This document shows, in pieces, positions 1,015 through 47,128 of a stretch of 47,128 nucleotides of DNA. The notes under the pieces are model-generated. The model did no database searches, had not been told where the DNA came from, and saw only the letters and a list, made by a program, of their open reading frames with translations. The position numbers were made by a program, and so were the translations under genes. Within the stretch, counting starts at the first letter, position 1; every line of letters starts with the position of its first letter. Origin of the DNA: an uncultured Bacillota bacterium (GTDB lineage Bacteria; Bacillota_I; Bacilli_A; RF39; UBA660); the NCBI GenBank assembly GCA_946617625.1, contig CAMOKF010000007.1, forward strand, positions 1-47,128, given 5' to 3'.

Positions 1015-1027
1015 TATTATATTATGC
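1015..1027 (-). promoter_or_regulatory. Late-promoter-like motif upstream of scaffold gene
   Basis: The minus strand reads GCATAATATAATA here, a variant of the GCATATAATATTA core found eight times on the late strand. It ends 16 bases before the scaffold start codon and is followed by the ribosome binding site. No -35 box is visible. Confidence 0.6.
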
Positions 1028-2938: not shown

Positions 2939-2951
2939 TATTATTGTATGC
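2939..2951 (-). promoter_or_regulatory. Late-promoter-like motif overlapping the end of terL
   Basis: The minus strand reads GCATACAATAATA, a divergent copy of the late motif, 18 bases before the portal start. It overlaps the last codons and stop of the large terminase gene (Cys-Ile-Gln-stop), so it is constrained by coding sequence, which may explain its deviation from the consensus. Confidence 0.5.
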
Positions 2952-4811: not shown

Positions 4812-5393
4812 CTATTTAACTCTTATTTTTTGTCCTACTTTTATAACATTAACATTTTTAATATTATTCCACTTAGCTAATTGTTTAACTGTAGTTTTAT
4901 ACTTTTTAGCTATTTTAGATAAAGTATCACCTTTTTTAACAACATAATATTTTTTAGTTTCTTTAGGTTTATCTTCTAGCATAGAATATTTTTTTGGATT
5001 TAGCCAAGTATTAGAACCTATTTTAGTAATACCTAAATGTAAGTGAGTACCTGTACTTCTTCCAGTACTTCCCATAATAGCTATAATTTGACCTTTCTTT
5101 ACCTTGTCTCCTTTATTGACTAATACTTTAGAGCAATGAGCAAAAAGTAAAGCTAAGCCATATCTTTTATATCTAACCCATACATAATTACCATAACCAG
5201 TTTTTGATTTACTTTGATTGTTAACTACTTTTTGAACTACACCTTCATCAATAGCATATAAATTTCTATCTTTTATTTTAGATACTTCATCTAAACCACA
5301 ATGAAGTTGTTTCTTTTTAGTTATAGGATTTATTCTATAACCATAAGGTGAAGTAATTTTAGGTTTTTTAACTACATATTCGTATATTTTCAT
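4812..5393 (-). CDS. Endolysin: M23 metallopeptidase with LysM wall-binding domain
   Basis: A peptidoglycan-cutting enzyme of 193 residues. The M23 (lysostaphin-type) zinc peptidase spans about residues 12-135, with HxxxD at His31/Asp35, His86, and HxH at His117/His119. A LysM repeat for cell-wall binding follows at about 149-192 ([16 protein letters not shown]). There is no signal peptide, so release should depend on the holin, whose stop codon overlaps this start codon (TAATG), indicating translational coupling. It could instead be a virion-associated lysin, but the adjacent holin favours lysis. Cleavage of peptide cross-bridges is expected from the family. Confidence 0.93.
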
Positions 5394-5653
5394 TACTCAT
5401 CATCTCTTTCTTCTAATAATTCGTCATCGTCAGTCATATCAGTATCAATTTCAATTTTATTATATTTATGAGAACTAATACCAATAAGAGTTCCTATTAA
5501 TATAGAGACTATAGTACAAGTTTTATATATTTGTACTCCATAAGGTAATCCCCATACATCTGCTAATTCGCTATAAGCAAATCCAACAGCATCAAATACT
5601 ATTAAAGCTAAGTATTTTAATACATCATAAACTTTACTATTTTTAAATATCAT
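5393..5653 (-). CDS. Holin, Dp-1 type
   Basis: An 86-residue membrane protein with two hydrophobic segments (about residues 12-30 and 46-60) separated by a turn containing WGLPYG, and a highly acidic C-terminus. This layout and the motif are typical of Dp-1-like phage holins. It should form membrane lesions that release the endolysin encoded directly downstream with overlapping stop and start. A strong AAGGAGGAG site precedes the ATG, and a late motif lies at 5670-5682. Placement of lysis genes upstream of terminase, not at the end of the late operon, is less common. Confidence 0.9.
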
Positions 5654-5669: not shown

Positions 5670-5682
5670 TAATATAATATGC
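5670..5682 (-). promoter_or_regulatory. Late-promoter-like motif upstream of holin
   Basis: The minus strand reads GCATATTATATTA, followed by an A-rich stretch and GGAGGAG. It differs from the best copies at one base of the core. It would give the lysis and packaging genes their own late transcript, separate from the dCMP deaminase transcript. Confidence 0.65.
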
Positions 5683-6860: not shown

Positions 6861-6946
6861 ATTTTTGCCTTCTTTCTGCCTTCTTTAAATAGGAGGTATG
6901 CCAGAAGCATTGGGGAAGAGATGCCAAGAAGGCTATAGACATCTCT
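6861..6946 (-). promoter_or_regulatory. Structured 5' leader of the first late transcript
   Basis: On the minus strand the expected transcript starts at about 6946 with a hairpin, AGAGATG (6940-6946) pairing CATCTCT (6917-6923). Its 16-base loop contains GCCTTCTT (6926-6933). That loop sequence is a perfect 8-base complement of the two AAGAAGGC copies (6867-6874 and 6878-6885) that form the ribosome binding site of the dCMP deaminase gene. ACCTCCT, a match to the 16S rRNA tail, also lies in the leader (6891-6897). All pairings are read from the sequence; regulation by loop-to-site pairing is inferred. Confidence 0.55.
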
Positions 6947-6949
6947 CAG

Positions 6950-6962
6950 TTATATTATATGC
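6950..6962 (-). promoter_or_regulatory. Late-promoter-like motif ahead of the late strand
   Basis: The minus strand reads GCATATAATATAA, with TATAAT at 6954-6959. It lies about 90 bases before the dCMP deaminase start, unlike the other copies, which sit 15-21 bases before a start codon. No -35 box is apparent. It is the most upstream late-strand signal and probably starts the whole late block. Confidence 0.65.
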
Positions 6963-7265
6963 TAAGTTATTTTTAAATTTTCAGCTTGCATCCTATAACC
7001 TGGGAGGTTATAGCAGACTAGACTATTTCTGATTAAGGCCATTACTGGTTTACTCAGGCTAAGACCTAAGTGGAGAGTTAGATATAATAATAGAGAAAAA
7101 ACCTAAAGGCCTCAATTTATCTTTTTAGAAAATAGAAAATCGCGAAAATCGAGAAAATGACGGTCTGAAAGTCCTAGAAACAAAATGAAAGTGCCTGGGG
7201 TGAGTGGGGAGAGAGAAAAGTGCGAAGAAAGTGCGAAAAAGATACATAAAATCGCTCAGGGCCAG
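6963..7265. other. Divergent intergenic region with hairpin and short repeats
   Basis: No convincing gene. An 8-base-pair hairpin (6993-7000 with 7006-7013, CTATAACC/GGTTATAG, loop TGGGA) lacks a T-run, so it is not a typical terminator. AGGCC-containing elements at 7034-7045 and 7104-7115 resemble those in the 8.0-8.4 kb region. From 7125 to 7250 the plus strand is strongly purine-rich and holds two direct-repeat families: GAAAATCGC-type at 7135, 7144 and 7153 (tandem, 9 bases), and GAAAGTGCG-type at 7167, 7187, 7215 and 7227. These lie just before the early promoter and may be regulator or replication-protein sites. Confidence 0.6.
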
Positions 7266-7294
7266 TTTACAAATCGATAATTATTTTATATAAT
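7266..7294 (+). promoter_or_regulatory. Early promoter P1 (TTTACA-N17-TATAAT)
   Basis: TTTACA at 7266-7271 and TATAAT at 7289-7294 with the ideal 17-base spacer. It reads towards the 143-residue gene at 7365, leaving a 5' leader of roughly 60 bases that contains a strong AAGAAGGAGG ribosome binding site. This is a standard host sigma-A type promoter. Confidence 0.85.
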
Positions 7295-7364
7295 AGTATC
7301 AGAATTAAACGAATAACAGTCGTATAATTCTAAAAAATATTTATTAAAGAAGGAGGTATTAGAT

Positions 7365-7796
7365 ATGAAAGCTAATACAAAGAAAGTAGAAGTAGTAGCT
7401 ACTGTAAAAAATACTACAAAAAATAATAAGAAAGAAGTTAATACTGAAGTAAGTCAACCAATCGTTGCTACAGGAATTAAAGCTATTCGTGAGACTTATG
7501 GTAAGAATTGTATTATCATTAAAGATAATATGGTATTTAGAACTTCTACACAAGTTTTAGAGAAAGGTCCAAAATCATTACTTGACTTATACTTACCAAA
7601 TTATGGTAAAATGAGAAAGTTTGTAGTTAAAGATAATGGTATTTATGAAATAACTACAGACGTAGTACAAACTGGTACTCAATTCGCACAATACACTTTA
7701 GGTGATAAAGTAAAAATGGACATCTCTGAAATTGATTTCAACATTGAAAATAGTTGGAATTTCAAGAAAATATCTGATAAAGTGGCTACAAAATAG
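7365..7796 (+). CDS. First early protein, unknown function (143 residues)
   Basis: The gene lies alone between promoter P1 and a terminator and has an exceptionally good ribosome binding site (AAGAAGGAGG). Its codons favour GGT, GTT and ACT. It should be strongly and early expressed. The first 33 residues are Lys/Thr/Val-rich and look disordered. Residues 34-143 form a compact, mixed domain (ATGIKAIRETYGKNCIIIKD). I recognise no family. Position suggests a host-takeover or DNA-binding role, but that is only inference. Confidence 0.88.
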   Translation: MKANTKKVEVVATVKNTTKNNKKEVNTEVSQPIVATGIKAIRETYGKNCIIIKDNMVFRTSTQVLEKGPKSLLDLYLPNYGKMRKFVVKDNGIYEITTDVVQTGTQFAQYTLGDKVKMDISEIDFNIENSWNFKKISDKVATK

Positions 7797-8688: not shown

Positions 8689-8717
8689 TTTACAATTTAA
8701 TAAAAATGGAATATAAT
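8689..8717 (+). promoter_or_regulatory. Early promoter P2
   Basis: TTTACA at 8689-8694, a 17-base spacer, and TATAAT at 8712-8717, followed by TAAATTA. The GGA before the -10 box and the TGTTTACA -35 are shared with P3 and P4. It should drive the small-gene cluster from 8757. A TGGATTCAGC repeat lies immediately upstream. Confidence 0.85.
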
Positions 8718-11770: not shown

Positions 11771-11799
11771 TTTACAAAATATACTATATGGATTATAAT
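11771..11799 (+). promoter_or_regulatory. Early promoter P3
   Basis: TTTACA at 11771-11776, 17-base spacer, TATAAT at 11794-11799. The surrounding TGTTTACAAAAT and TATGGATTATAATTAAATTA are nearly identical to P4 and similar to P2. It drives the block from 11836. Confidence 0.88.
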
Positions 11800-15405: not shown

Positions 15406-16632
15406 ATGAAATATGAAGATTTGTATGATTATCAAAAAGAAATAGTTAACCAATTAAGTAAATCAAAATTGTTACTTATGAGTGTTGGCTCTGGTAAAAC
15501 TTATTGTTCTACATTTGCTTATAAAAAATATTGTAAAGGTAAATTACTTATTTTAGCTCCAGCAAGTATGATTGAAGAATGGAAAGATACGTGCGAAGAA
15601 CTGGAAATTACAAATTATGATATTTATAGTTATAATAAAATATGTATGGAAAAATATATAACTGAAGTATTAAATACAGATTATGAATGTGCTATAATAG
15701 ATGAAGCTCATCATATAAGTAATAGAAACAATAAATCTACTAAAAAAATATTGAAAAAGATTGATTCAATAAGATTAAAATATTTATTGACTGCTACTCC
15801 TGAAAATTATGAATGGAAAGATTTTTATATCTACTTTAGAATAATATATGGTTCAGGTTTTATGAGTTATACTGCTTATAGAAGAAGATATTTTGTTGAA
15901 AGACCTAGTTATTGGAATCCTTATGTAATGGACATTCTAGGTTATGTTAATGAAGATGAGCTAATAAGATTTAAAGATTCAATAAGCATTATATACAATA
16001 AAAAAAGAAAAGCTAAAGTAGAAGAACACGAAGTATATGTAAATATAAACTCTGATTTACAAAGAAAATTTAAAACAATAATAAAAAACAGAGTATATAA
16101 AGATTATATAATAGATTCTCCAGCAAAAAATGGTTACTTTAAAAGAATGTTAGCTAGTTTAATGATTCTTAGTGATGATGAAGATACTTACAAATATGAA
16201 TTAGTAAGTAATGTTAAATTAGATAAACTTAAAGAAATAATAGAAAGTAATAAAAATGAAAATATAATAATTTATTATAATTATATTAATGAAAAAACTA
16301 TATTAGCAGAATATTTAAAAGATTATGATGTAAGAATATTTAATTCTAAAAATGATTTTGAAATTGTAGAACCTGGAAAAATAAATATGATAAGCTATGC
16401 TGTTGGTTCTGAAGGAGTAAATAAATTTAAAGATTGCTCAGTATATATAGCATTTAGTTTACCATATAGCAAAAGAATTTTCAAACAAAGCAAAGGTAGA
16501 ATTAATAGACTTGATAATTATGAAACTGAAAAATATTATTACTTTATAAATGATATTGATTATAAAGTATTAGAAACATTAAAGAAAGGTCAATCATTTA
16601 CTGATAAATTAATGGAGAAAACTTATGAATAA
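15406..16632 (+). CDS. Superfamily 2 DNA helicase
   Basis: 408 residues. A Q-like motif (YDYQKEIV) is followed by Walker A SVGSGKT (residues 26-32), the Walker B DEAH box (about 95-102, AIIDEAHH), motif III (TATPE, about 129) and motif VI (QSKGRINRLD, about 362), all in the usual order. It is compact and has no extra nuclease domain. It should unwind or remodel DNA or replication forks for phage replication or recombination. It overlaps the sigma-like gene by eight bases. Confidence 0.92.
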   Translation: MKYEDLYDYQKEIVNQLSKSKLLLMSVGSGKTYCSTFAYKKYCKGKLLILAPASMIEEWKDTCEELEITNYDIYSYNKICMEKYITEVLNTDYECAIIDEAHHISNRNNKSTKKILKKIDSIRLKYLLTATPENYEWKDFYIYFRIIYGSGFMSYTAYRRRYFVERPSYWNPYVMDILGYVNEDELIRFKDSISIIYNKKRKAKVEEHEVYVNINSDLQRKFKTIIKNRVYKDYIIDSPAKNGYFKRMLASLMILSDDEDTYKYELVSNVKLDKLKEIIESNKNENIIIYYNYINEKTILAEYLKDYDVRIFNSKNDFEIVEPGKINMISYAVGSEGVNKFKDCSVYIAFSLPYSKRIFKQSKGRINRLDNYETEKYYYFINDIDYKVLETLKKGQSFTDKLMEKTYE

Positions 16633-17161
16633 AGATGAGTGTGAGAAATTTTATTTAGAAAATGAAAAACTGGCTTATAAATTTGGTACTAAATATGGAA
16701 TATTACATGATGAAGATATGATGCAAGATATTAAAATAGCATTATATAAAGCAGTTAAAACTTTCGATCCTAATAAAGGAGTTGCTTTCTCAACTTATGC
16801 TTTTACTATTATGGCTAATGAGTATAATTATCATTTTAGAAATAAATATTTGAAATTTAGCTTTGTAAAAAATACAGTTATCGGAGATAATAATAAAGAA
16901 ATATCAATATTTGATATAATTGAAGATACTAATACTGTAGATTTAGATACTAATATAATAAATAAAGAAATTATAGATATAATATTAAATTATATTAAGT
17001 CATTAGATTATTTATCTAAGAATTTATATTACGATTATTATTTTAAACATTTAAAGCAAAAAGAGATGGTTGATAAATATAAATTATCTCAAACTCAAAT
17101 AAGTAGAAAATTGAAAAAAATAAATAAGAGTTTACAAAAACTATTAGCCGGTTTTATATAA
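16625..17161 (+). CDS. Sigma-70-like RNA polymerase sigma factor
   Basis: 178 residues. Residues 12-75 match sigma region 2, with DMMQDIKIALYKAVKTFDP and FSTYAFTIMANE covering the core-binding and -10-recognition helices. Residues 125-172 hold a region-4-like helix-turn-helix (KQKEMVDKYKLSQTQISRKL). Region 3 seems absent. As an early gene it is the natural candidate to direct host RNA polymerase to the -10-only late motifs on the other strand. That link is inferred. It is the last gene of the P3 transcript. Confidence 0.85.
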   Translation: MNKDECEKFYLENEKLAYKFGTKYGILHDEDMMQDIKIALYKAVKTFDPNKGVAFSTYAFTIMANEYNYHFRNKYLKFSFVKNTVIGDNNKEISIFDIIEDTNTVDLDTNIINKEIIDIILNYIKSLDYLSKNLYYDYYFKHLKQKEMVDKYKLSQTQISRKLKKINKSLQKLLAGFI

Positions 17162-21700: not shown

Positions 21701-22152
21701 TGATCGAAGAAATTAATAAAGTACCATTGTATATAGCTTCTAGAAATGAAGTTAGAGAAGATATAATGGTTTACCCTGAAACTGGAGATATAAGAAAAGA
21801 TAATGCTGATTATTATTCAAGTTTTAGAGAATATATTAGAGATAATAAATTATATGTTATTATTGATGGAATAATGTATAATAAAGCTAAATTAATATAC
21901 GATTCAGTAAATAGAAATAATTTACCATCAAAAAGATATAAAGTATTAGTACAAGGTGATATAACTCATCCAAATATACATAATATAATTGTAACAGATT
22001 TAAATTATAAAGACGATGTAATAAATACTTTTGATGAGAGTATTAATGTATTATATAATGATATAGATACTAATATTAGCATAGAATATTTATTGCAACA
22101 GTTAGCTAGTAAAAAATATAAAGTAATAGATAATGAGGTAAGTAATGAATAA
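21700..22152 (+). CDS. Hypothetical protein (150 residues)
   Basis: The start overlaps the polymerase stop (TAATG). Beta-rich with an acidic C-terminal half; contains VPLYIASRNEVREDIMVYPETGDI near the N-terminus, which resembles a substrate- or DNA-interaction surface but is not a motif I know. Function unknown; tight coupling to polymerase suggests a replication role. Confidence 0.75.
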   Translation: MIEEINKVPLYIASRNEVREDIMVYPETGDIRKDNADYYSSFREYIRDNKLYVIIDGIMYNKAKLIYDSVNRNNLPSKRYKVLVQGDITHPNIHNIIVTDLNYKDDVINTFDESINVLYNDIDTNISIEYLLQQLASKKYKVIDNEVSNE

Positions 22153-27051: not shown

Positions 27052-27074
27052 AAAATCGCTTTTTAAGCGATTTT
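27052..27074. terminator. Bidirectional terminator between the converging blocks
   Basis: AAAATCGCTT (27052-27061) pairs with AAGCGATTTT (27065-27074), 10 perfect base pairs with a three-base loop. T-runs follow on the plus strand (27071-27082), and a T-rich stretch follows on the minus strand. It overlaps the stop of the giant late gene at 27073-27075 and backs up the early terminator. Confidence 0.85.
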
Positions 27075-30000
27075 ATTTTTTTAATTTTTTAAAACTATCT
27101 TTACTAGGAGTGTAGGTATACGTTTCATCGTCAAAATATATTGTCCATACATCTCCATTTTTATCAATAGTGTATTTATTGTAGTTATCAATAGTATCTT
27201 GAGTTAAAGCATCTCTAGCTTGATACAAATCTTTCATATCTTCTAATGTAGCTCCGTTAGCTTTTTGTTTATTAATATCTCCACTAATTGAATTTATAGC
27301 GTACACTTTAGTATCAATATACTTTTTCATAACTTTATCTTCAAAAGACATATCTTTATCATTTTTCTTTTGATATTGATATTTATCTCGTAAAGTATAA
27401 ACTGCTGATAAGTTTTTATCATACTTAGTAGAGTCAAATACATAGTTATTTACATCCCATATATCAGTAGTACTATCACCATCCATAAGATTCTTGAATG
27501 CTTTACCATATCTACCAAAAGTATTCATACTTATATAATTTATTATTGAAAAGGCTTTTTCATCTAATGGAGCATCTTCGTTATATATTTCTGCTCCATA
27601 ATAATTTTTATTATTTTTTATAGCTGTTATTTCATTGAATGGACTACTTTCGATTAAGTCTTGAGGTAATACTGATGATTCTAAAGAAGATTTTATAGAT
27701 TCAATATAAGTATTTAAATCTACTTCATCATCTACTCCAGTAGCATATCTTACAAGAGTATCTACAGTTCCAACAATTCTTCCTTTAGGAATTCTTAAAA
27801 ATTTATTATCTCCAATTTTAATCATATAGTAATTATTTTTATAATAATATGGTAGTTTTTCATAATCTTCATCATCTTGATTCAATAAAGCATTTAACAT
27901 AGCTGGAGCACTCATAGCTCCTACTTTCATTAATAAGTTTAATGAACCTTTAACTGGATTTTCTTTAATTTTACCTATATCATATTTTATAGTACTAACA
28001 GTTTTATCTAATGCTTGAGTACTTGCATTTAAGAATAACCAACCTTTACTATTAAGAGCTTGTGTAGCATAACCTCCTCTAGCAAAGTTAAGGTTTACAT
28101 CTTGAGCTTCTAATTTAGCTTCAACAGAAGTTTTACCTGATTCTATAGCTGATATATATTCAGCCATCTTAGGTAAACTTTCAATAGATGTTAATATTCT
28201 TGTAAATTTATTAGTACTAGCTGTTTTTGGTACTATTCCAGTATTTGTTATTTCTTGATATAATACACTATTATTAGCAGCATTGAATGCAGCTCTTATA
28301 TAATTCTTAGCAAATTTTAATGGGTATTTACTATAGAATAATGCGCTATCACCAAAGTCTCTAAGCATATTGTTAGCAGTATATATTGGGTCATAGGATG
28401 TTAACATTTTTTGTTGTACTTTAGTTTTTAATTTAGGAAACCAATTTAGTACTGGAATAGAAAATATATCATCTAATGTTTTTTCAATATTATATTTTTG
28501 GAATACTTGAGCTATTTCATTATTGGTAGTAAATTTATTTACTTTACCTCCATCATAATATATTATATCAGTTCCAGTATTTTTACCTTTAGCATCAATA
28601 GAATATAACTTAGAATTAGCCATAGCTTTGTAAGCATTATTTTTAAGTATACTATTTTCTAAATTTTGTTCTTGTGCTACAAATGCTGTCCATATATCTA
28701 AAATACTTTTACCTTGTTTAGTAGTAGGTTTTAGAGTATCACTTGCTTTAAGTTTAGTATTGTAACTTTTTTCTCCTATATCACCAAAATCACTAGGTTC
28801 GGCTGAATAAATAGGAGCATATATAGTGTATTTACTATCTAAAGCTTCTTTTTGTGAAGTAGAAATAAGACCTGCATCTAATAATTTTTGAGTATTATTA
28901 GTATTCCAAACTCTTAAATCATCTATTACATTTTTAAAGTATGGATGTTTTTTAATCATAGAGTCATAATATTGCTGAGATTTTTTAGCATCTAAATTTA
29001 ATATTGGTTCTTGGTCATTATTAATTCTTTCTACATTTAATATTGCTCTAATAGTTTTTTGAAAGTCATTTAAATCTTGTTTTTTAATTTGTTTTTTAAT
29101 TGTATCTAATGATTTACCTACTACATTACCATTAATATCAGTTTGTTCTACTTTTATATTATTATGTACTTTATTTCTAATAGTCCATAAATCACTTATT
29201 GCATTTTTAACATCTAAATTAGAATTAGCATTAGCAATATTTAGTATAGGAGAATACCTATCAAATACTGCACTATATAATTTAGAAAATGAATTTTTAA
29301 GTTCTTTATTAGCTTTAGTATTATGTACTGACACTTCATTAAATGCTTCTTCTATATCTTGTAAAGTATCTACACTTATTGTTTCTGGATTACCTTTAAT
29401 TTCTATATCTCCAGCTTTAACTGTAACTTCTGATTTTATAGGAGTAGGTTTTTCAATATTTTTAGTTTTAGTATTTATATCAGTATTTTTAATATTAATT
29501 TGATTAGAATTAAATGTAACATATACTGTTGATAATTTATTACCTAATTTTTTATGATAATATGGACCTCTATCTAATACATTATTAAATATTAATCCAT
29601 CATATTTTTTATTGCTAGTTTTATTAAGTTCTAATACTGAATTTACAATATCATCGGTAGTATTACCAATATCAGACTTTATTCTATTAAACATAGCTCC
29701 ATTAGCATCTATTATATATGGATTTTCAATATTAATATATGCTGAATATTGTTTACCGTCTATACTATTTCTATATGAATCAGCTATATCTGCATCATCT
29801 GAAAAGAATGATATTTTTTCTTTACTATTAGTAGTATTAGATAAAATTTTATCAGCATTACTACCTCTGTATACCATTTTAGGTTGACCTATTTCATTTA
29901 CTACTTTACTATTTTTTATAAAGTTTTTATCTTTAGTTGATAACTTATTACCTAAATTGTCAGTAGTTATATTTTTTATATTTAAATCTTTATTAATTTT

Positions 30001-33000
30001 ATTATATTCTTCTTTTGTTATAAATTGTGAATCATCAAATACTATATAGTCAGTTCCTAAAAAATAATTATGTAGGTGGTCTTGTGTTTTTTTAGCATCT
30101 ACTATTTTTTGTCCTTTTTCATTTATTTCATAACCTATTTCATTACTATGTAATGTTGCCCATTCTGAATATGTAGGAGTATGGTATGTATCTAATACAT
30201 TATTGACTATTAATCCATCATAACCATTTTCTTTAGCATATTTAGCAATATTATCTATATTAGTAACATTTTTCTTTAATCCAATATCGCTAGAATCTTG
30301 TTTTAAATCTATTATATTATGTTCTATAGATATAAATGAATTTCCATTAGCGTCTATAATTAGTGGATTATTCATTGCTATATAACCTGATATTACTTGT
30401 GAATTTTCAGTATACTCTAAATTATTATTTAATGAATAAGTTTTAGCTGCTTCTTTATTAGTAGTAAAGTTTAATCTTGGTAAAGCATTATTAGGAGCTA
30501 TTTTTTTACCTGAATAATTAGTAGATAATTTATTACCTATTAATTTACTATCTGTTCCATGATATACTTCTATTAATTCTCCATTTGAATTTCGTAATAA
30601 AGGTTTATTATTTAGTAATTTATCGCTTTTTATATCGCTCCCTGCGGAATCGAGTTTCGTTTCGGTTATAGATTTATTACTTAGATTTAAATCTGATTTA
30701 ACTTTAACAGACGATTTTATACTATCAGATTGTTTACTTCCTACTTTTACTGGTTTAGTTTTAACAGCTCCGTTCATTGTTTCTTTAGCTATTTGCATTT
30801 TAGCAATAAAGTCTTCTTTGCTTAAAGTATTCTTTTCTAAAGCCATTATTTCATCTACTTTTTTAGAAGCTTTATTAAGTTCATTATCAATATTAGCAGT
30901 ATCATTATTATCTGTAGCAGTTATAAGTTTAGTTTTTTGTTTGCCATATAATACTCCATCATAACCTAAAGTTTGAAGTATTTCTTTAGCCATATCTTTA
31001 TTTTTATTTACTAATTCTGCTACATCTTTATTAGTAGAACGAGTAGTTAATTTATCACCATTAAGTCCTAATTTATCAATCATATTATTTACTTTATTCA
31101 CAGCTCTTTCTGATAAATTTAATTTAGCATCTGAATTACCATATATAAATTTACCAGTAGAGTTAACTATAACTGGAGTATGTCCATCAGAACTAATAGA
31201 TTCACTAGCTTCATAAGTATTAAATCCAGTTTTATCAAATACAACTGGTTTACCTCCTTTTTGCTTTATAGGAGTTCTAGTTTCATTATTGTATTTATTT
31301 AAAATGCTTAATGTTTTAGCAAAAGCTTCTCTTCTTTCAGCTAATGAATAATTTTCAGTATCTAAAGTATTTAATAGATTTTCTTGTACATTATTACTTA
31401 TATCTGTAAAATTACCACTAGCTAAAGCTGAATTATCTATTTTAACTTTTGATATAGGTAAATCTTCATTAGCATCTACTTTAGATAAAGTATTATTTAA
31501 ATCACTAAGTTCTGTATGTAAATTTTTAATAGATTTAGAATCAACTGTAGTAGGTGAAGTTTCATTTTTTATTTTAGTATTTAGATTTAAATTATATGTA
31601 GCTTTACCATTTACATAGTTTTTAATATCTTCATTAAACGTTGGAGATTTAACATCTATAACTTCTACATCTGCCGTTGGATTATTAGCTAATATAAAGT
31701 TAGCCATTTCTTGTGAAGGTACAACTGTTGTTACAGTATTATTTTTAATAGCACTTGGACTATAATTTGATTTAGTATTTTCAGGTATAACTTGATTAGC
31801 TACTACTTCAGGAGTTATTTTACCATTGTTTAAATTTTCAATAAATGTACTATATTTTCTATTACCATATAATTCATTATAATAGAATAATTTTTCAGCC
31901 ATAGGATCGTCATTATGAACTAATAAATCATATACTTCTTGAAGAGTAGGAGATTCACTAAGACCTTTAGCTTCATAATAATTAGGATTATTAAGACTTT
32001 CTAATATAGTTTTTTCAGTAGAGTCAAAAGTAATAGCTTCTATATTTGATTTATAAGTATTAGTATTATCAATTGACACAGCCTCCACATCTTTAGTTGT
32101 AGTAGTATTAGTAGGTGACTCGTATTCTATATCTAAGTTATCAATATCATTATCTATATCAGTACTAATTATATCTACAGATTGGTTATTTTCTAAAGAG
32201 GTTGTTAAAGTTTCAGTCAATTTTTCTTTATTTACTTTTTCTACAGAAGTAGAATCTACATTTATAGCTCCTTCAGGAGTTTTATTTATATGAGCATATT
32301 TAGTATTAGTAGTAATATTATTATTTCTATATTTTAATTTAGCTCTACCAGCTTGTGTTGTACCTACTGCTCCACTTACTATTATAGCGTATACAAAATT
32401 TTTAAAAGCTTGAGCTCTAAGTTCTTTATCAAATACTACATCTTTAAAACTTCTATCTTTATCTCCATACATCATGTCTTCACCATAAGCTTGGAAAAAT
32501 TCTTCTAAACCTTCACTAGTCATTGTTATACCTAAAGCTTTTGCTATTTCTCCAAACGTCATTTTAGAAATTTCATAAGTAGTTTTATCATCAAAACTGA
32601 ATTTACCTAATGGACTCTTTTTAATTATTCCATCTAATACAAAGTTCATTGCCACATATAGAGAAGCACCGAATGTTTGTATCGCATTTGGATTTTCTCC
32701 TAAAAGAGCTGATTTTTGTTCTTCTAATCCTAAAGGCTTAGCTATAAAGTTATCGTATAAACCAGGTAAAGCTACGCTTCCAGAAGAAGCAGTATCAATA
32801 TATAATTTAGCTTTACCTACAAGTGGTACTAAGTATTCAGCAAAATCTACTATTCCATTAGTAATCATTAAAGCTTTTTCATCATCTATATCAAGCATAT
32901 TAATAGGTATATCATTTGCTAAAAGAGTATTAACACTACCAAAAGACATATCCATCATTGCATTAGCCGTAGCTCCAACAGTTTGAATTGTAGCATTAAA

Positions 33001-34074
33001 TAAATTAGCAAAATTATCGATTATATTTTCGTGAAAGTATTTATTTTTGTCCCATTTTAGATTTACATCTATATTCTTAAATGGTTCTTCTACGCTGTTC
33101 ATCATATTTTCTATTTTATTATAATCATCATTTAACGAATATAAATTAGTTAATCTATTATATTGTATTAATTGATTTTCAAATTCTAACTTAGATTTTT
33201 CAGTTTGTAATTTATTTAATGTAGCATCATTTACTCCATTAGATATAGAACTATTAATTGCTTCTAATTTTTTTACATTAGTATCAAATCTTTTTTCTAA
33301 AGTAGCTATATCTTTACTATCTCCAAATAAAGAGCGTAACATTCCATCACTATAATCTGCTCCAAAATATTTTTCATTTATTTTTTGCATAGCATTATTT
33401 GCTGCTTTTACATTTCCTTCTTTTATACTAGTATTAAATTTTTCAATATATTTTTTATAATAACTATCTTTATTCTCATAAGGATTTATAGTTTGCTTAT
33501 TAGTAGCTTTATTAGTAGCTTTATTAGTTATAGCTTCAAATTGAGAACTAGCTTCAGTAGTTTTTTTATTTGTTGGACTAATGTTTTTAAATTTATTTTG
33601 TACATCTTGTTTAGTTTGCCATTGTTTAGCTTTTTTCTTATTCTCGGCAGCTTCATCAGTAATCAAAAAATTATTTAGTGATAAATCATTTACTCCTAAA
33701 TTAGTATAAAAATCAGAAGTAGAAGTATCTTTAGAATTATTATAATTATATTTTTGTCCACCGGAAGTAGCTAAATCCCAATTATAAATCAAACTATTAG
33801 TTCTTTCTTTAATTAATGAACTTTTGTTGTTATTATAATATTCTTCTTGTTCTTTTTTCTTTTTTTCTTCTGCTGCTTTTTGTTGTTTTTGTTGCTCCAT
33901 TTCTAATTGTTTTTTAGCCAAATTATTTGAATAATAATCTATTTGAGCCAAAAAATCATTAGAAGAATTTTGAGATTTAGAAGCAGAAGAGTTTGTACTT
34001 TTAACTTTTTTAGAACCTATACTATTTACTACTTCATTGAATATATCATCATTTCTACTATATTTAAAAGCCAT
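27073..34074 (-). CDS. Giant polyvalent ejection protein with ADP-ribosyltransferase-like domains
   Basis: 2333 residues. Order: Gln/Lys/Glu coiled coil (about 35-110); a helical part with hydrophobic stretches (about 340-600); a long Asn/Thr/Ser-rich linker; ART-PolyVal-like unit A (about 1158-1351, with VYHGT, FTTNKEAAKTYS, YDGLI, YIVFDDSQF); unit B (about 1390-1525, with VYRGS, FFSDDADIADSY, YDGLIF, VTFNSNQI); and a C-terminal region (about 1810-2115, with YDPIYTANNMLRDFGDS) resembling LPD38 of large polyvalent proteins. Such proteins are packaged and injected with the DNA. ADP-ribosylation of a host target is inferred. The hexapeptide GNKLST recurs three times round the ART units. AGGAGG start site. 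Confidence 0.85.
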   Translation of the reverse strand: MAFKYSRNDDIFNEVVNSIGSKKVKSTNSSASKSQNSSNDFLAQIDYYSNNLAKKQLEMEQQKQQKAAEEKKKKEQEEYYNNNKSSLIKERTNSLIYNWDLATSGGQKYNYNNSKDTSTSDFYTNLGVNDLSLNNFLITDEAAENKKKAKQWQTKQDVQNKFKNISPTNKKTTEASSQFEAITNKATNKATNKQTINPYENKDSYYKKYIEKFNTSIKEGNVKAANNAMQKINEKYFGADYSDGMLRSLFGDSKDIATLEKRFDTNVKKLEAINSSISNGVNDATLNKLQTEKSKLEFENQLIQYNRLTNLYSLNDDYNKIENMMNSVEEPFKNIDVNLKWDKNKYFHENIIDNFANLFNATIQTVGATANAMMDMSFGSVNTLLANDIPINMLDIDDEKALMITNGIVDFAEYLVPLVGKAKLYIDTASSGSVALPGLYDNFIAKPLGLEEQKSALLGENPNAIQTFGASLYVAMNFVLDGIIKKSPLGKFSFDDKTTYEISKMTFGEIAKALGITMTSEGLEEFFQAYGEDMMYGDKDRSFKDVVFDKELRAQAFKNFVYAIIVSGAVGTTQAGRAKLKYRNNNITTNTKYAHINKTPEGAINVDSTSVEKVNKEKLTETLTTSLENNQSVDIISTDIDNDIDNLDIEYESPTNTTTTKDVEAVSIDNTNTYKSNIEAITFDSTEKTILESLNNPNYYEAKGLSESPTLQEVYDLLVHNDDPMAEKLFYYNELYGNRKYSTFIENLNNGKITPEVVANQVIPENTKSNYSPSAIKNNTVTTVVPSQEMANFILANNPTADVEVIDVKSPTFNEDIKNYVNGKATYNLNLNTKIKNETSPTTVDSKSIKNLHTELSDLNNTLSKVDANEDLPISKVKIDNSALASGNFTDISNNVQENLLNTLDTENYSLAERREAFAKTLSILNKYNNETRTPIKQKGGKPVVFDKTGFNTYEASESISSDGHTPVIVNSTGKFIYGNSDAKLNLSERAVNKVNNMIDKLGLNGDKLTTRSTNKDVAELVNKNKDMAKEILQTLGYDGVLYGKQKTKLITATDNNDTANIDNELNKASKKVDEIMALEKNTLSKEDFIAKMQIAKETMNGAVKTKPVKVGSKQSDSIKSSVKVKSDLNLSNKSITETKLDSAGSDIKSDKLLNNKPLLRNSNGELIEVYHGTDSKLIGNKLSTNYSGKKIAPNNALPRLNFTTNKEAAKTYSLNNNLEYTENSQVISGYIAMNNPLIIDANGNSFISIEHNIIDLKQDSSDIGLKKNVTNIDNIAKYAKENGYDGLIVNNVLDTYHTPTYSEWATLHSNEIGYEINEKGQKIVDAKKTQDHLHNYFLGTDYIVFDDSQFITKEEYNKINKDLNIKNITTDNLGNKLSTKDKNFIKNSKVVNEIGQPKMVYRGSNADKILSNTTNSKEKISFFSDDADIADSYRNSIDGKQYSAYINIENPYIIDANGAMFNRIKSDIGNTTDDIVNSVLELNKTSNKKYDGLIFNNVLDRGPYYHKKLGNKLSTVYVTFNSNQINIKNTDINTKTKNIEKPTPIKSEVTVKAGDIEIKGNPETISVDTLQDIEEAFNEVSVHNTKANKELKNSFSKLYSAVFDRYSPILNIANANSNLDVKNAISDLWTIRNKVHNNIKVEQTDINGNVVGKSLDTIKKQIKKQDLNDFQKTIRAILNVERINNDQEPILNLDAKKSQQYYDSMIKKHPYFKNVIDDLRVWNTNNTQKLLDAGLISTSQKEALDSKYTIYAPIYSAEPSDFGDIGEKSYNTKLKASDTLKPTTKQGKSILDIWTAFVAQEQNLENSILKNNAYKAMANSKLYSIDAKGKNTGTDIIYYDGGKVNKFTTNNEIAQVFQKYNIEKTLDDIFSIPVLNWFPKLKTKVQQKMLTSYDPIYTANNMLRDFGDSALFYSKYPLKFAKNYIRAAFNAANNSVLYQEITNTGIVPKTASTNKFTRILTSIESLPKMAEYISAIESGKTSVEAKLEAQDVNLNFARGGYATQALNSKGWLFLNASTQALDKTVSTIKYDIGKIKENPVKGSLNLLMKVGAMSAPAMLNALLNQDDEDYEKLPYYYKNNYYMIKIGDNKFLRIPKGRIVGTVDTLVRYATGVDDEVDLNTYIESIKSSLESSVLPQDLIESSPFNEITAIKNNKNYYGAEIYNEDAPLDEKAFSIINYISMNTFGRYGKAFKNLMDGDSTTDIWDVNNYVFDSTKYDKNLSAVYTLRDKYQYQKKNDKDMSFEDKVMKKYIDTKVYAINSISGDINKQKANGATLEDMKDLYQARDALTQDTIDNYNKYTIDKNGDVWTIYFDDETYTYTPSKDSFKKLKK

Positions 34075-34087: not shown

Positions 34088-35095
34088 CTAAATTCCATAT
34101 TGCTTTTTAACAGCTGCTTTATCAGCTTTAGAAAATTTATATTTAGAATTATTTAATACTGAATTAATTTGTGATTTAGTTACTCCACCATTATTAACTT
34201 CAGCCTGTATTAAAGCTAAGTAAGCATTATAAGCATCATTATTACTAAATGACCCTGGATTCATACAATAAGTAGTTTTATATACTGTTTCAGTTTTACC
34301 AGTTTTAGTATTTTTCTTTTTAGTTTTAGTAGAACCTCTACTTCCACCTCCACCTCCGCCAGTTTTCTTATGAGCGGTGTAATAAGCTAATTTATATTGC
34401 TTAGTAGCTAAATCATTTTCAAATTTTTGTTGTTTTAATTGGTCTTGGTATTGTTTTTCTTTAAACTTATTTTCCCATTCTTGTTGAGCAAGTTTATCAG
34501 CTCTGTCTTGTTGAGCTCTTTCATTTTCTAGTTCTTGTTGCTTTAATCTATCTTGATATTGTAAATCATTATAGTAATTATTATAAGTAGTATTATATAC
34601 ATCTCTACCTTGTTCACCAATATATTTTTGAGTTTCAAGTTTATCTTTAGCATAAGCAGCATCTAAGTCTGCTAAATCTTCATTTAAATCTCCTAGAGCA
34701 TTGATTTTTTGATTATCAATATCTCTCATACTTTCATTATAGTCTAATACTAAATCTCCATATTGTTGTCCGTAAGCAACATTATTTAATAATCTTTGTG
34801 TTACTCCAAAACCTTGAGTATTTACTCCTAAAGCAACTAAATCTGAATCAATTTGTTGTAAGTTTTGTTGTTTATTTATATAAGCAGCTCTAGCATTTCT
34901 TTCGAATCTTTGTTGTATACCAGGAATTTGTTGTTCTATTTGAGTAATTAAATTTTGGTATCTAGTTTGAGCGGCTTGTTGGTCTAATGCTTTGCTTTCA
35001 TCTAAACCAGTCAATAAATAAGATAATGAATTTTCATATTCTTGTTGAGCATTTGTAGCATAGTCATTAGATTTAGTTATATATTCTGATTCCAT
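34088..35095 (-). CDS. Internal virion protein (coiled coil)
   Basis: 335 residues rich in Gln, Asn, Glu and Tyr. Residues 1-235 form long helices with an internal near-repeat (QYQDRLKQQELENERAQQ and QYQDQLKQQKFENDLA). A Gly6 hinge (about 246-251) and a basic linker follow, then a small C-terminal domain with SQINSVLNNSKYKFSKADK. This composition and the place just before the giant ejection protein fit an internal or ejection protein, comparable in role to T7 gp14/gp15. It has a late-promoter-like motif and terminator directly upstream. Confidence 0.8.
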   Translation of the reverse strand: MESEYITKSNDYATNAQQEYENSLSYLLTGLDESKALDQQAAQTRYQNLITQIEQQIPGIQQRFERNARAAYINKQQNLQQIDSDLVALGVNTQGFGVTQRLLNNVAYGQQYGDLVLDYNESMRDIDNQKINALGDLNEDLADLDAAYAKDKLETQKYIGEQGRDVYNTTYNNYYNDLQYQDRLKQQELENERAQQDRADKLAQQEWENKFKEKQYQDQLKQQKFENDLATKQYKLAYYTAHKKTGGGGGGSRGSTKTKKKNTKTGKTETVYKTTYCMNPGSFSNNDAYNAYLALIQAEVNNGGVTKSQINSVLNNSKYKFSKADKAAVKKQYGI

Positions 35096-35110: not shown

Positions 35111-35123
35111 TAATATTATATGC
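35111..35123 (-). promoter_or_regulatory. Late-promoter-like motif upstream of internal virion protein
   Basis: The minus strand reads the full core GCATATAATATTA, followed by AAAAGGAG. It starts directly after the T-run of the terminator at 35125-35151, so the -35 position is occupied by a hairpin. TATAAT is at 35115-35120. Confidence 0.8.
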
Positions 35124-35124: not shown

Positions 35125-35151
35125 AAAAAAGTGTAAGTATTAACTTACACT
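35125..35151 (-). terminator. Terminator upstream of internal virion protein gene
   Basis: On the minus strand AGTGTAAGT (35143-35151) pairs with ACTTACACT (35130-35138), loop TAAT, followed by a T-run (35125-35130). It ends the transcript of the preceding small genes immediately before the next late promoter. Confidence 0.87.
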
Positions 35152-38808: not shown

Positions 38809-39072
38809 TTATTTAATCCTTTCACTAATACTATCTAACTCTTTGCTTAAATTTTTTTGGTCATTTTCTAATATAGCCATTCTTCCTAAGACGTTATTAT
38901 ATTTGTCTTGTTTTTTAGATAGTTCATTTATTCTATATTCCATTAATTTTAAATTCTCATCTAATTTAGTATTTATTACAGCTTGATTTTTATTATTAAG
39001 AGTAACAGTAGCTAATATAGAAGGTATAGCAGTACATAAGCCACCTATAATAGCAGTAAGAGTACTTTCCAT
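38809..39072 (-). CDS. Membrane-anchored coiled-coil protein, holin-like (87 residues)
   Basis: N-terminal hydrophobic segment (about residues 4-25, TLTAIIGGLCTAIPSILATVTL) followed by a charged helix (about 33-87, KLMEYRINELSKKQDKYNNV) that should be coiled coil. Such proteins are often annotated as holin-like or BhlA-type; with a Dp-1 holin elsewhere it may be a second lysis or antiholin component. Preceded by a late motif (39094-39106) and AAAGGAG. Confidence 0.75.
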   Translation of the reverse strand: MESTLTAIIGGLCTAIPSILATVTLNNKNQAVINTKLDENLKLMEYRINELSKKQDKYNNVLGRMAILENDQKNLSKELDSISERIK

Positions 39073-39093: not shown

Positions 39094-39106
39094 TAATATT
39101 ATATGC
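39094..39106 (-). promoter_or_regulatory. Late-promoter-like motif upstream of membrane gene cluster
   Basis: The minus strand reads the perfect core GCATATAATATTA, preceded by TTTA and followed by ATAAGAAAGGAG. It lies 21 bases before the start of the 87-residue gene and just after the small 35-residue gene stop. Confidence 0.8.
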
Positions 39107-42516: not shown

Positions 42517-44781
42517 TTACTCACCTCTATATTTTCCAGCTTTTCTATATTCTATATACATTCTGTCAAATTCACATGCTAATTCAGTAGATTTAATATA
42601 TAATTTTAAAAACATTATTTTTCTAGCTTTTTCTTTTACTCTCAATGTTTGCGGTATTTTATTTAATATTGGGTCTCCTAAAGTAATATCATTAAAATTT
42701 AAACTTATTAAATTAAGAGAAGGAATACCAGTGTCAGTATTTATATCTAATAATTTTCCATGTAATAATTTTTTTATGATAAATTTAGTATATCTATATT
42801 CTGTATCATAAAATATTTTAATTGGAGTAATTATAGGATTTTCACTATCAGTCACATCTATATTAAATATACCTAACATAATATTTCCATCTTCAGGTTT
42901 ATAAAAACCTATAAAATTTTTAGCGGTAGCAGTTTGTGTTCCATAATAATAACCACTAATACCATAAGAACTACTTGTACTAGGTACTTTAGTAGTATCA
43001 AAATTTAATTGAGTTCCATACGGATAATTTATTTCTTCAGTATTATCATTAGGCATATTACCATCAACTAATTTATAAATAGTTTCAGATACTACTTCTT
43101 CTTCATCGATAGTTCTATAACCAAAATCAAATTTAGTATTTTCTTCAGCTATATAATTTAATAAAAAGTTTCTTGTAGTTTTAGCTATGATAGGATTTGA
43201 AAAATCTAAAGGTATAGTTTCAAAATAGCATGCTACGTTTTGTGTAACTCCTACATCTAATTCATCTACATAATCAGTACCAAACATTTTTATATTACCA
43301 TTATTATCTCCCATAACAATGTCATTATTCCATCTCATTACATTTCTCACAGGTATATTATCAAACAAATACCATTGATATTGATAAATAGTATTATTAG
43401 CAGTTTGAGTTAACTTAGCGCTATCTCCTACGTATACTTTATTATTAATAAATAAATAATAATAGTCGTTTATTCCTATCGCTCTAGCATTATCCAGATC
43501 GCTCTCAGTTAATAACTTTTTATTTATATAATACGATTTATTATCAGCGTATCTTTCTAAAGCAGAATCTGCATCATCAGTTACGGCTGCACATACTCCT
43601 TGCTCACTTAAAAATAAATCAGCATTTCTTATATTTACGCATGTATAATTAGATAAACATCCTACATTTTTAGTTCCTTTAATTAATGGATAGACATAAT
43701 AATTATTATAAGTATTAGATGTTCTATAATAAATGCTACAATCTGAATCACTTAATTTTTTTAATATAGCTAAAGTACCATTAGAAAGTCTCAAATAACC
43801 AATTATAGGTTGAGAACCTATTACAGTGAAAGTATCATCAGGTACATAAGTTGGGTCAACAATTATTCCAAGTCCTATATCAGAATGCCAATCGCAATTA
43901 GGAACATCAGGATTTCCAGAATAAAACATAGATTGATTATTTCCTCTATAACCAAATGGAGCACAAAATCTACATTTATTTATTCTATTAGCTAAATCTT
44001 CAGTAGTAGATTTAAATAATATTTTTACATTAGGAGCTCCTGTTATTGGAGTAGCTTCAATAGGTTCATAAAAAGTAATAGTATTATTACTAGCTACAGT
44101 ATAAGCGCCTGAATCCATTAAATCCCATTCTCCAGTAGTAGCATTTAATTTCCATACTTTAGTATCACCTATACCAGTACCTATAGTTTTAGAATCAGTA
44201 TGATAAACAGTACTCGTTCCGTCACTAATAAATGTATTAATTCTATATGGAGTCATCATATTAGCAGATTCAATTAATGTACCACTAGTACCGTCTGGAT
44301 TTAAAGCTTCTGTTGTAGTAGGAATATAAGCTACTTGGTCCATATATTGAGGTCCATAAACTCCATTATATTTACCATATATTATAGCTCTTCTACCATC
44401 AAGAATTATTAATTTATCATCCATAAACATTCCGTATGAGTCTTGTTCTGCTAAACCACTCATTACTTGTGTTTGTACTGTAAAATCAGTTGATACTTCG
44501 TATAATTTATCTCCACAATGCACTATTAATATTTCATTAAAATCTTCATCGCTTGGTACATCATACTGCCATATACCATATATAGGTTTATTATCAATAT
44601 GTTTTTTTATCTTTACTCCATTTCTTTTGTGCATATAACCATTTTCTAAAATCATATTAATCATTTTAGGACTATGGCGTACATCTAAATCCAATGGATT
44701 ATTATAATCAACTCCTAAAAATTCAGTTAAAGAATTTAAAAATGTAGCTGGAGATTCTGGTACTTTAAAACTAACAGCCAT
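42517..44781 (-). CDS. Tail hub / tubular protein B-like (754 residues)
   Basis: ATG 44781 has AGGTGG at six bases; an in-frame GTG further up lies inside that site. A large beta-rich protein with no signal peptide, containing RHSPKMINMILENGYMHKRNGV near residue 35, a repeat-like WQYDVP…DKLYEVS series and a central YRINTFISDGTSTVYHTDS segment. Position after the adaptor gene and before fibre genes and its size fit the podovirus nozzle/hub (T7 gp12-like role). Family similarity is by general features only. Confidence 0.75.
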   Translation of the reverse strand: MAVSFKVPESPATFLNSLTEFLGVDYNNPLDLDVRHSPKMINMILENGYMHKRNGVKIKKHIDNKPIYGIWQYDVPSDEDFNEILIVHCGDKLYEVSTDFTVQTQVMSGLAEQDSYGMFMDDKLIILDGRRAIIYGKYNGVYGPQYMDQVAYIPTTTEALNPDGTSGTLIESANMMTPYRINTFISDGTSTVYHTDSKTIGTGIGDTKVWKLNATTGEWDLMDSGAYTVASNNTITFYEPIEATPITGAPNVKILFKSTTEDLANRINKCRFCAPFGYRGNNQSMFYSGNPDVPNCDWHSDIGLGIIVDPTYVPDDTFTVIGSQPIIGYLRLSNGTLAILKKLSDSDCSIYYRTSNTYNNYYVYPLIKGTKNVGCLSNYTCVNIRNADLFLSEQGVCAAVTDDADSALERYADNKSYYINKKLLTESDLDNARAIGINDYYYLFINNKVYVGDSAKLTQTANNTIYQYQWYLFDNIPVRNVMRWNNDIVMGDNNGNIKMFGTDYVDELDVGVTQNVACYFETIPLDFSNPIIAKTTRNFLLNYIAEENTKFDFGYRTIDEEEVVSETIYKLVDGNMPNDNTEEINYPYGTQLNFDTTKVPSTSSSYGISGYYYGTQTATAKNFIGFYKPEDGNIMLGIFNIDVTDSENPIITPIKIFYDTEYRYTKFIIKKLLHGKLLDINTDTGIPSLNLISLNFNDITLGDPILNKIPQTLRVKEKARKIMFLKLYIKSTELACEFDRMYIEYRKAGKYRGE

Positions 44782-45469
44782 AATAACCACCTACATCTCT
44801 AGAATGTTCAGTACCTAAACTATCAACCATTTGAGAAGATATATAATCTAATTCTGTCTCAAATTGGTTTCTATATTGAGTAGATAAAGAAATATCATCA
44901 TCTTTATATAACTCAGATGCTAAATATAAAGGTACTATAGAACAAATATTATATGGTAGATTTATTATAGTATCATACGGAGTAGTATTAGTATAAATAT
45001 ATGGAATTACTCGATATTTAAAAATCAAATTAGAATCTGAATCATTGAAAAATCTTTTATCAATATATAATACTCCATCTTGCTCATCAAATAATAGATT
45101 ATCTTTTCTTACATCAGTATGTTGTATAACTTCAGTATATAAATAATCTAATTGTTCTCCTTCTTCTAATAATGAAGTTAAATAAGATTTTATATCAAAT
45201 ATATAATAATTAGAATCATTACTATTTATATAATCTGCATAACGAGCATCTTTCATATCAATAACTAGTCTTTTTATATTTATCAATACTCTGTTATTTA
45301 ATATAACTATTAGCTCGTTCATTACGTCTGGAGCCATATTCAAATAAGTAGCATAATTTCTATCATCTACTAAATCTGGTAAATCTGATACTAATATAGC
45401 ATCCTTATTTAAAAACATTTTTCTACACGTAGATATTAATATATCTCCCCAGGTTATATCTTTATTCAT
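44771..45469 (-). CDS. Head-tail adaptor (tubular protein A-like, 232 residues)
   Basis: Located directly after the major capsid gene and before the tail hub, the adaptor position. Helix-rich with segments such as YLNMAPDVMNELIVILNNRV and LPYNICSIVPLYLASELYKDDD (read in parts), the latter typical of gp11/gp6-like connector proteins. It should bind the portal and hold the tail hub. Own late motif at 45487-45499 and AAGGAG start site; the end overlaps the hub gene by 11 bases. Confidence 0.82.
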   Translation of the reverse strand: MNKDITWGDILISTCRKMFLNKDAILVSDLPDLVDDRNYATYLNMAPDVMNELIVILNNRVLINIKRLVIDMKDARYADYINSNDSNYYIFDIKSYLTSLLEEGEQLDYLYTEVIQHTDVRKDNLLFDEQDGVLYIDKRFFNDSDSNLIFKYRVIPYIYTNTTPYDTIINLPYNICSIVPLYLASELYKDDDISLSTQYRNQFETELDYISSQMVDSLGTEHSRDVGGYYGC

Positions 45470-45486: not shown

Positions 45487-45499
45487 TAATATTATATGC
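45487..45499 (-). promoter_or_regulatory. Late-promoter-like motif upstream of tail adaptor
   Basis: The minus strand reads the perfect core GCATATAATATTA followed by AAAAGGAG. It begins four bases after the T-run of the capsid-gene terminator (45503-45530). TATAAT lies at 45491-45496, and the -35 position is inside the terminator. Confidence 0.82.
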
Positions 45500-45540: not shown

Positions 45541-46575
45541 TTATTCTAAAGCACTTCCACCAGTTACATTGAATACTGCAACTTCTCTCCAATCAATTGC
45601 TGAATAGCAGTGACGGTCAGCTCCAGCGAATACAACATTTTCTGTTTTTTCATCAGTGTAAGCTCTAACTCTTAAACTTTCTCTATTTTGATAGATTAAT
45701 CCATCAACAACACTATTATAATTACTATCTAATAAGATAAATGGTTTATCTGTACCAATTAATTTATTTAAGTGTTGTGATACTACTACATTATATCTAC
45801 CAACTAAGAAGTTGAAAGCATTACCATTAGTTTCAGGAACTTGAGTAGCTCCAAGAACACCAAATACTTGTTTTTTAAGAGTAGCATCATTAGGAATAAT
45901 AATTGTATCTGGAGTAATACCAGCAATTTCTCCATTATCATCTAAAATATTTTGCATTACTGTTTCAGCTTTAGCTAAAGCATCTGAACTAAAATAAACA
46001 CCATCTGCAATTTCAGTAGCAATTCCAGCATATTTATTAGATTGAGTAGCAACTCCTTCAACTTTAGATGTATGTGCAGTATGGAATAAATTTAAACCAT
46101 CAGCACTTGTGATGTCCATAGCTTTTCCTTTGTAAGTACTAGTTCCATTAACAGCATTTACTAAGAAAGCTCCACCTTCATTATTTCTAGATAACCAATA
46201 ATTTCTCATCATTAATGCTAAACCATTGATTGCTCCTGAAATTTTATTATCTTCAATAGCATTTCTTGTTACATGGAAGCTATTTGCATAATTGAAGTTT
46301 TCTACAAATTTCTTATAACCTTCAATTCTTTCACTAATCTTAGGTACTCCACCTTCTGGAATTTGTTCAAATCCACCGATTAGTTCACTCATACTAGTGT
46401 AAGATTCTGCAAAACTATCAGAACTTACTTCTTTAAAAATATCTTTAAATGTATCAGTTTGAGCAAATTCATTATATTTTTCAACAATAACACTCTTTAA
46501 TGGAGCATATAAATCTTTGAAAAATATACTATTCGCTAAATCTCCTGATACAGTAAATAATAAACCTGTATTCAT
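45541..46575 (-). CDS. Major capsid protein (HK97-fold)
   Basis: 344 residues, located after scaffold and decoration genes, flanked by its own late motif and a strong terminator as expected for the most abundant virion protein. Sequence signs of the HK97-fold coat include YTSMSELIGGFEQIPEGGVPK near residue 60, FHVTRNAIEDNKISG (N-arm/E-loop region) and the P-domain-like SVVDGLIYQNRESLRVRAYTDEKTENVVF (read in parts) near the C-terminus. Codon choice is more restrained (GGT, GCT, ATC appear) than in neighbouring genes, fitting high expression. Aggressive AAGGAGGAG start site. Confidence 0.9.
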   Translation of the reverse strand: MNTGLLFTVSGDLANSIFFKDLYAPLKSVIVEKYNEFAQTDTFKDIFKEVSSDSFAESYTSMSELIGGFEQIPEGGVPKISERIEGYKKFVENFNYANSFHVTRNAIEDNKISGAINGLALMMRNYWLSRNNEGGAFLVNAVNGTSTYKGKAMDITSADGLNLFHTAHTSKVEGVATQSNKYAGIATEIADGVYFSSDALAKAETVMQNILDDNGEIAGITPDTIIIPNDATLKKQVFGVLGATQVPETNGNAFNFLVGRYNVVVSQHLNKLIGTDKPFILLDSNYNSVVDGLIYQNRESLRVRAYTDEKTENVVFAGADRHCYSAIDWREVAVFNVTGGSALE

Positions 46576-46593: not shown

Positions 46594-46606
46594 TTATATT
46601 ATATGA
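46594..46606 (-). promoter_or_regulatory. Late-promoter-like motif upstream of major capsid gene
   Basis: The minus strand reads TCATATAATATAA, one of the weaker copies, and overlaps the last codons and TAA stop of the decoration gene (Phe-Ile-stop). The capsid start is 18 bases downstream with GGAGGAG between. Confidence 0.6.
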
Positions 46607-46970: not shown

Positions 46971-47128
46971 TACAATTCCTCCTTAACTTTATCTTTAGAT
47001 TTTTCTTCTTCTTGTAAATCTTCAGAATCAGTATCTTCTTCATCTTCAATTACTTCAGTTTCTGTATCTTCTTCAGAATCAGTATCTTCTTCATCTTCAA
47101 TTACTTCAGTTTCTGTATCTTCTTCAGA
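46970..47128 (-). CDS. Acidic repeat protein, C-terminal part (continues at 238-1)
   Basis: Reads in frame with the N-terminal part at 1-238 through the circle junction (47074 equals position 1). It contains two 17-residue repeats rich in Glu, Asp and Thr, followed by SEDLQEEEKSKDKVKEEL and TAA 46970-46972, which overlaps the next ATG. Bases 47074-47128 duplicate 1-55. Repeat number in the real genome is uncertain because the repeat is longer than the overlap used to close the circle. Confidence 0.85.
   Translation of the reverse strand, partial: SEEDTETEVIEDEEDTDSEEDTETEVIEDEEDTDSEDLQEEEKSKDKVKEEL
47023..47124. repeat. 51-base tandem repeat (two copies) in the acidic gene
   Basis: Copies at 47023-47073 and 47074-47124 are identical; a third, divergent partial copy follows on the circle from position 52. 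The period of 51 bases equals 17 codons, so gain or loss of copies keeps the frame. The circle junction falls inside this repeat. Confidence 0.9.
47074..47128. repeat. Terminal direct repeat, right copy
   Basis: Identical to 1-55; removing one copy gives a 47,073-base circle with an intact gene across the junction. Confidence 0.9.

Follow-up and report, generated by a model that had tools for sequence, protein, structure and literature searches.

In the window analysed here, a whole phage contig of 47,128 nucleotides, the genes of one strand appear to be read from promoters that consist of a -10 element only, and this element has the form known from the sporulation sigma factors K and E. The reading that we prefer, with a probability of roughly 0.7 as judged from the sequence, is a cascade in which host sigma A would give way to a phage-encoded sigma factor, which in turn would serve -10-only, sigma-K-like late promoters. 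What the sequence supports is a pair of promoter classes that prefer opposite strands, a sigma gene and the conservation of the motif; from these, we infer that the phage sigma reads the late motif, as well as the start sites and the timing. Sequence and conservation give good support to the original prediction of a late regulon that is confined to one strand and uses -10-only promoters. The likeness to T4 late transcription holds functionally but not in sequence, as the motif differs from TATAAATA, the box of T4, and the prediction overlooked the phage sigma gene, the resemblance of the -10 element to that of sigma K/E (GCATANNNTA) and the sigma-A promoters of the early strand.

Since the two ends of the contig are identical over 55 bases (1–55 and 47074–47128), its actual length should be ~47.07 kb (~47,073 bases), and it is probably circular or circularly permuted. 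The phage DNA has 26% G+C and belongs to a bin of 1.19 Mb (82.75% complete), to which it is linked by binning only. Genes for a helicase, a Sak4-like annealing protein, a dUTPase, a DNA polymerase and a primase lie on the plus strand at ~7.3–27 kb, while the minus strand carries the portal, terminase, capsid, tail, holin and endolysin genes; the labels "early" (plus) and "late" (minus) are assigned from this gene content only. In the annotated phage collection, nothing closely related to the structural region was found. The ORFs that were scanned include no phage RNA polymerase; the 2333-aa protein of the virion region matched LPD38 only. The Rfam search returned no family and the tRNA search no tRNA.

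Eight copies of the motif had been proposed on the minus strand, and all eight are present there, three of them identical over 13 bases (all GCATATAATATTA). As putative late promoters, they are arranged as follows.

6950..6962, minus strand: candidate -10 element of a late promoter, GCATATAATATAA; the dCMP deaminase ORF follows after ~90 nt, without a Shine-Dalgarno (SD) sequence adjacent to the element
5670..5682, minus strand: candidate late promoter GCATATTATATTA, preceding the holin gene (5393–5653), then endolysin and terminase
2939..2951, minus strand: candidate late promoter GCATACAATAATA, preceding the portal gene (1031–2920)
1015..1027, minus strand: candidate late promoter GCATAATATAATA, preceding a 213-aa structural-region gene (357–998)
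46594..46606, minus strand: candidate late promoter TCATATAATATAA, preceding the major capsid protein gene (45541–46575)
45487..45499, minus strand: candidate late promoter GCATATAATATTA, preceding a 232-aa gene (44771–45469)
39094..39106, minus strand: candidate late promoter GCATATAATATTA, preceding an 87-aa gene (38809–39072)
35111..35123, minus strand: candidate late promoter GCATATAATATTA, preceding a 335-aa gene (34088–35095) and the 2333-aa virion-region protein

Seven of the eight end 15–21 nt before a start codon and adjoin the SD sequence, just as predicted. This nearly fixed spacing between motif and SD would also suit a signal that acts in RNA, that is, a leader or translation element joined to the SD rather than a promoter. 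Such a role is very improbable, as the copy at 6950 has no adjacent SD, and the motif fits a known -10 consensus and is present at only some late genes. In addition, two copies stand behind terminator-like hairpins, a position that calls for a new start: the site at 45487 stands directly after a hairpin identified by eye, and the site at 35111 after the following one.

35130..35151, minus strand: intrinsic terminator-like hairpin, immediately ahead of the candidate promoter at 35111

The hexamer TATAAT by itself is common on either strand (152 versus 134), and in DNA of 26% G+C the eight copies might be taken for chance matches, which we regard as extremely improbable from the following counts. 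GCATATAATATWA with at most one mismatch has 7 matches in the window, 7 of 7 on the minus strand, while dinucleotide shuffles give an expectation of 2.1 over both strands and none of them reached 7. For scanning both strands with a matrix, as had been proposed, we trained the test matrix only on the sites of relatives to avoid circularity. Ranks 1–6 on the minus strand are all sites of the original prediction, and above 13 bits there are 5 matches on the minus and 2 on the plus strand, against 0.77 expected per strand. The minus-strand counts above 9, 11, 13 and 15 bits were unmatched in 200 order-3 Markov sequences. The two plus-strand matches above 13 bits lie at 4979, antisense to the endolysin gene, and at 22079, within an early ORF, with the next ORF starting ~55 nt further on. 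At gene starts of the window and two relatives, GCATANNNTA is near 18 of 68 on the late strand versus 0 of 102 on the early strand (Fisher 1.5e-8, for a three-genome count that includes orthologous sites and is thus not one of independent sites), and the contrast is seen in each relative by itself (G002, p 0.0018; G003, p 0.0012). The motif is therefore absent from early-strand gene starts, as had been claimed, and shuffles, Markov sequences and gene-start counts agree that it is not equally frequent at random or on the early strand.

Conservation argues against chance matches as well. We have identified 5 IMG/VR contigs with capsid proteins 85–91% identical to that of the window, two of them near complete (G002 and G003). 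On the late strand, the motif is also present in two rumen relatives of 46 kb and in several fragments. Matches with at most one mismatch fall on a single strand in G002 (6) and G003 (8), and most of these precede an SD and a start codon on the strand of the structural genes. The same placement is found in L065, a 13-kb contig from a MAG labelled Erysipelotrichaceae (RUG13160). Sites are conserved at orthologous places before four genes, namely the portal gene (window 2939; G002 16159, G003 10337, L065 3264), the 213-aa gene (window 1015; G002 14011, G003 8398, L065 5409), the 232-aa gene (window 45487; kept in G002, G003, G004, G005 and L065) and the 335-aa gene (window 35111; G002 3028, G003 43444, G005 839). 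At the 335-aa gene, the 13-mer is identical in the window and G002, and the sequence upstream has diverged. Against the eight-site matrix, the capsid copy at 46594 scores lowest, and the relatives have no above-threshold counterpart at that place. In a scan of all IMG/VR, the exact extended motif GCATATAATATTAWAAAGGAG was found in this phage group only.

What kind of -10 element this is can be seen from 21 distinct sites, the set used for both the motif-fit and the -35 analyses. In B. subtilis, the sigma-K -10 consensus is GCATANNNTA (PMC3416734); 17 of the 21 sites fit it and 20 fit the core CATANNNTA, the single exception to the core being GCATATAATTATA in L065. The invariant C is the most informative column, and a T-rich stretch immediately precedes the G of the motif. 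The predicted absence of a -35 box is borne out: the best column between -42 and -7 has 0.46 bits (p = 0.30 relative to shuffled sequences), and boxes of the sigma-K (KCACM), sigma-E and sigma-A types show no excess over shuffles at the 21 sites.

A perfect TATAAT is held by 17 of the 21 sites, and this would be expected if host sigma A reads the TATAAT core with the aid of a phage activator or a sigma-remodelling protein touching GCA. Appropriated sigma A is known in T4 middle and phi29 late transcription, and several early ORFs here are without an assigned function. Nevertheless, we find this explanation unlikely. The four sites that deviate from TATAAT and the three that deviate from the leading G all retain CATANNNTA, which is thus kept with TATTAT, TACAAT, TAATAT and TAGAAT, and no conserved activator site is seen upstream of the 21 sites. 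Neither of the invariant flanks, CA upstream and A downstream, is a sigma-A feature. Host sigma-A promoters favour TGn instead: among 55 intergenic TATAAT boxes from 200 kb of the bin, TGnTATAAT occurs in 23 and GCA before TATAAT (GCATATAAT) in 0, while no late site has TGn, since all of them have C as the second base before the A of the hexamer. Elsewhere in the bin, one exact motif copy precedes a translation/ribosomal-protein gene cluster; it has TTGACA 17 nt upstream, and we have set it aside as an ordinary sigma-A promoter.

Promoters of the sigma-A type are found mainly on the other strand. The pattern TT[GT]ACA-N16-18-TATAAT occurs 23 times on the early strand versus 5 times on the late strand of the three genomes, and three instances in the window are listed below.

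7266..7294, plus strand: early sigma-A-type promoter TTTACA-17-TATAAT, before the first early genes; conserved at G002 20463 and G003 15627
8689..8717, plus strand: early sigma-A-type promoter TTTACA-17-TATAAT
11771..11799, plus strand: early sigma-A-type promoter TTTACA-17-TATAAT

A further promoter of this type stands right behind the stop of the sigma gene in all three phages (window 17165, plus strand; G002 31137; G003 26014), and it may give the dUTPase and downstream genes their own early start.

The candidate for reading the late motif is encoded among the early genes.

16625..17161, plus (early) strand: phage sigma factor of 178 aa, with sigma-70 region 2 and a C-terminal helix-turn-helix (HTH)

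It matches Sigma70_r2 with E 3e-11, and its score for the sigma70-ECF superfamily is above the cut-off. The gene is present in the same neighbourhood in both near-complete relatives, with 46–47% identity to that of the window. Among the sigma factors of the bin, SigK is the best match of all three phage sigmas; in the alignment they have, like SigE/SigK, regions 2 and 4 and lack the sigma-3 stretch of SigA/SigF. True membership in these families was rejected, with NCBIfam scores of 36 bits against a cut-off of 299 for SigK and 40 against 349 for SigE. In the sigma tree, the phage sigma is weakly placed on a very long branch, and its AlphaFold2 model (mean pLDDT 64) is too poor for use. An IMG/VR search with the sigma of the window alone gave no match, and a search with the alignment of all three members yielded the two known relatives and nothing else. 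The sole sigma matches within the annotated phage collection are sporulation-type sigmas of SPO1-like Bacillus phages such as SP8 (QPX71613); judged by position, the SP8-type sigma would be the counterpart of SPO1 gp2.21.

Two observations speak against pairing this sigma with the motif. The sigma is only 46–47% identical between the window and its relatives while the motif is nearly invariant, and a region-4-like HTH is kept although no -35 was found. On the other hand, three distant contigs (36–41 kb) that share the terminase at 46–49% and, in part, tail and other late proteins have neither a sigma-70 region 2 nor a motif site above 14 bits in records that may be incomplete. The absence of both agrees with joint occurrence, as one evolutionary contrast, and the co-occurrence itself is that of one phage group.

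The bin has a SigK gene (above the cut-off), one SigE-like and one SigF-like gene, so that host SigE/SigK could read the late boxes. It may be that the mother-cell SigE or SigK does so; virion genes would then be expressed in cells that sporulate, and the phage sigma would act otherwise, for example by altering host sporulation. The fit of the -10 element to the sigma-K/E consensus is in line with this, and phage sporulation-like sigmas are able to alter host sporulation (PMC9429907). We consider it quite unlikely, however, because -35 boxes of sigma K (KCACM) and sigma E are not above shuffles, all three near-complete phages encode their own sigma, the phage is tied to this bin through binning only, and it would be unusual for a phage to grow in sporulating cells alone. 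That the late promoters can be read by the phage sigma in growing cells and by host SigE/SigK in the sporulating mother cell is also unlikely. If it were true, the late programme would also run when the host tries to become dormant, and the phage would have taken over the promoter code of a sporulation sigma for virion production. The SigK, SigE-like and SigF-like genes (L060, L061 and L062) are kept in a small 1.19-Mb bin, and this points to a host lineage that forms spores or once did so.

Based on the above analyses, the cascade from host sigma A to the phage sigma probably runs as follows. Host RNA polymerase with sigma A would first transcribe the plus (early/replication) strand from TTTACA-17-TATAAT, and one of the early genes would yield a short sigma of the sigma E/K build, in which regions 2 and 4 are present and region 3 is missing. 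This sigma would bind the host core RNA polymerase and steer it to the minus-strand late promoters, where the sole recognised element would be the sigma-K-like -10 box GCATATAATATTA, with its core CATANNNTA and a T-tract just upstream. Late transcription would then start a few bases past the -10 element, almost at the SD, and produce very short leaders.

Phage sigmas for late genes are known from T4 (gp55) and SPO1 (gp34). As in such late regulons, a shared element is confined to the late genes here and a phage sigma gene lies in the early/middle region. T4 late promoters likewise consist of a -10 element read by a sigma-like phage factor; their box TATAAATA requires gp33/gp45, and both sigma and promoter sequence differ from those of the present phage, whose sites read GCATATAATATTA. 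With B. subtilis sigma K/E, it has in common the -10 sequence GCATANNNTA/CATANNNTA (PMC3416734) and a sigma with regions 2 and 4 and no region 3, but its sites lack the -35 (KCACM), and its sigma is short, divergent, far below the family cut-offs and would serve virion genes. In SPO1, as is proposed here, a phage sigma turns the RNA polymerase of the host to the late genes; the late promoters of SPO1 are two-part, CGTTAGA-N17-19-GATATT (PMC3601020). SPO1 reads its late genes through gp33/gp34, whereas one sigma and one sigK-like motif would cover the late genes here. SPO1 gp2.21 is likewise a phage-borne sigma related to sporulation sigmas; its proposed use of sigK-like promoters is unconfirmed, and it is dispensable (PMC9429907). 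In Herelleviridae (Listeria CKA15 and Staphylococcus phage K), there is likewise a -10-type late element without a -35, and a phage sigma is suspected. The CKA15 late motif TGCTATATTA is an extended sigma-A-like -10 and not GCATATAATA (PMC12282133), and phage K has late promoters without -35 (PMC11598898). In our SP8 scan, GCATANNNTA is no commoner than expected (20 sites against 22 expected), and all of these sites lack a -35. One GCATATAATA stands ~50 nt before the SP8 endolysin gene (L096 32148 = SP8 82148); the genome has 2 exact copies versus 0.35 expected, which may be chance.

As far as the literature searched shows, a late regulon that combines a sigma-K-type -10 box with a phage sigma of the sporulation-sigma build is new. 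The phage group offers a compact testable case, with a single sigma and with eight late sites that share one conserved sigK-like -10 box and lack a -35; these late sites would form a natural promoter set read through the -10 element alone. The finding also allows late genes to be annotated in an uncultured group of rumen phages.

Some minor observations concern single regions. The 2333-aa virion-region protein (27073–34074, minus strand) has its LPD38 domain near the C-terminus, and its counterparts differ in length (1470 aa in G002, 2134 aa in G003). The divergent early/late intergenic region 6963–7365, of which the relatives share the early-promoter end only, contains an unusually G-rich, strand-skewed stretch TGGGGTGAGTGGGGAGAGAG that is possibly an origin or packaging signal. 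The leader 6861–6946 (minus strand), between the 6950 promoter and the dCMP deaminase ORF, has no match in Rfam; it contains a 9-bp hairpin and folds better than its shuffles (-19.8 versus -13.4, sd 2.8).
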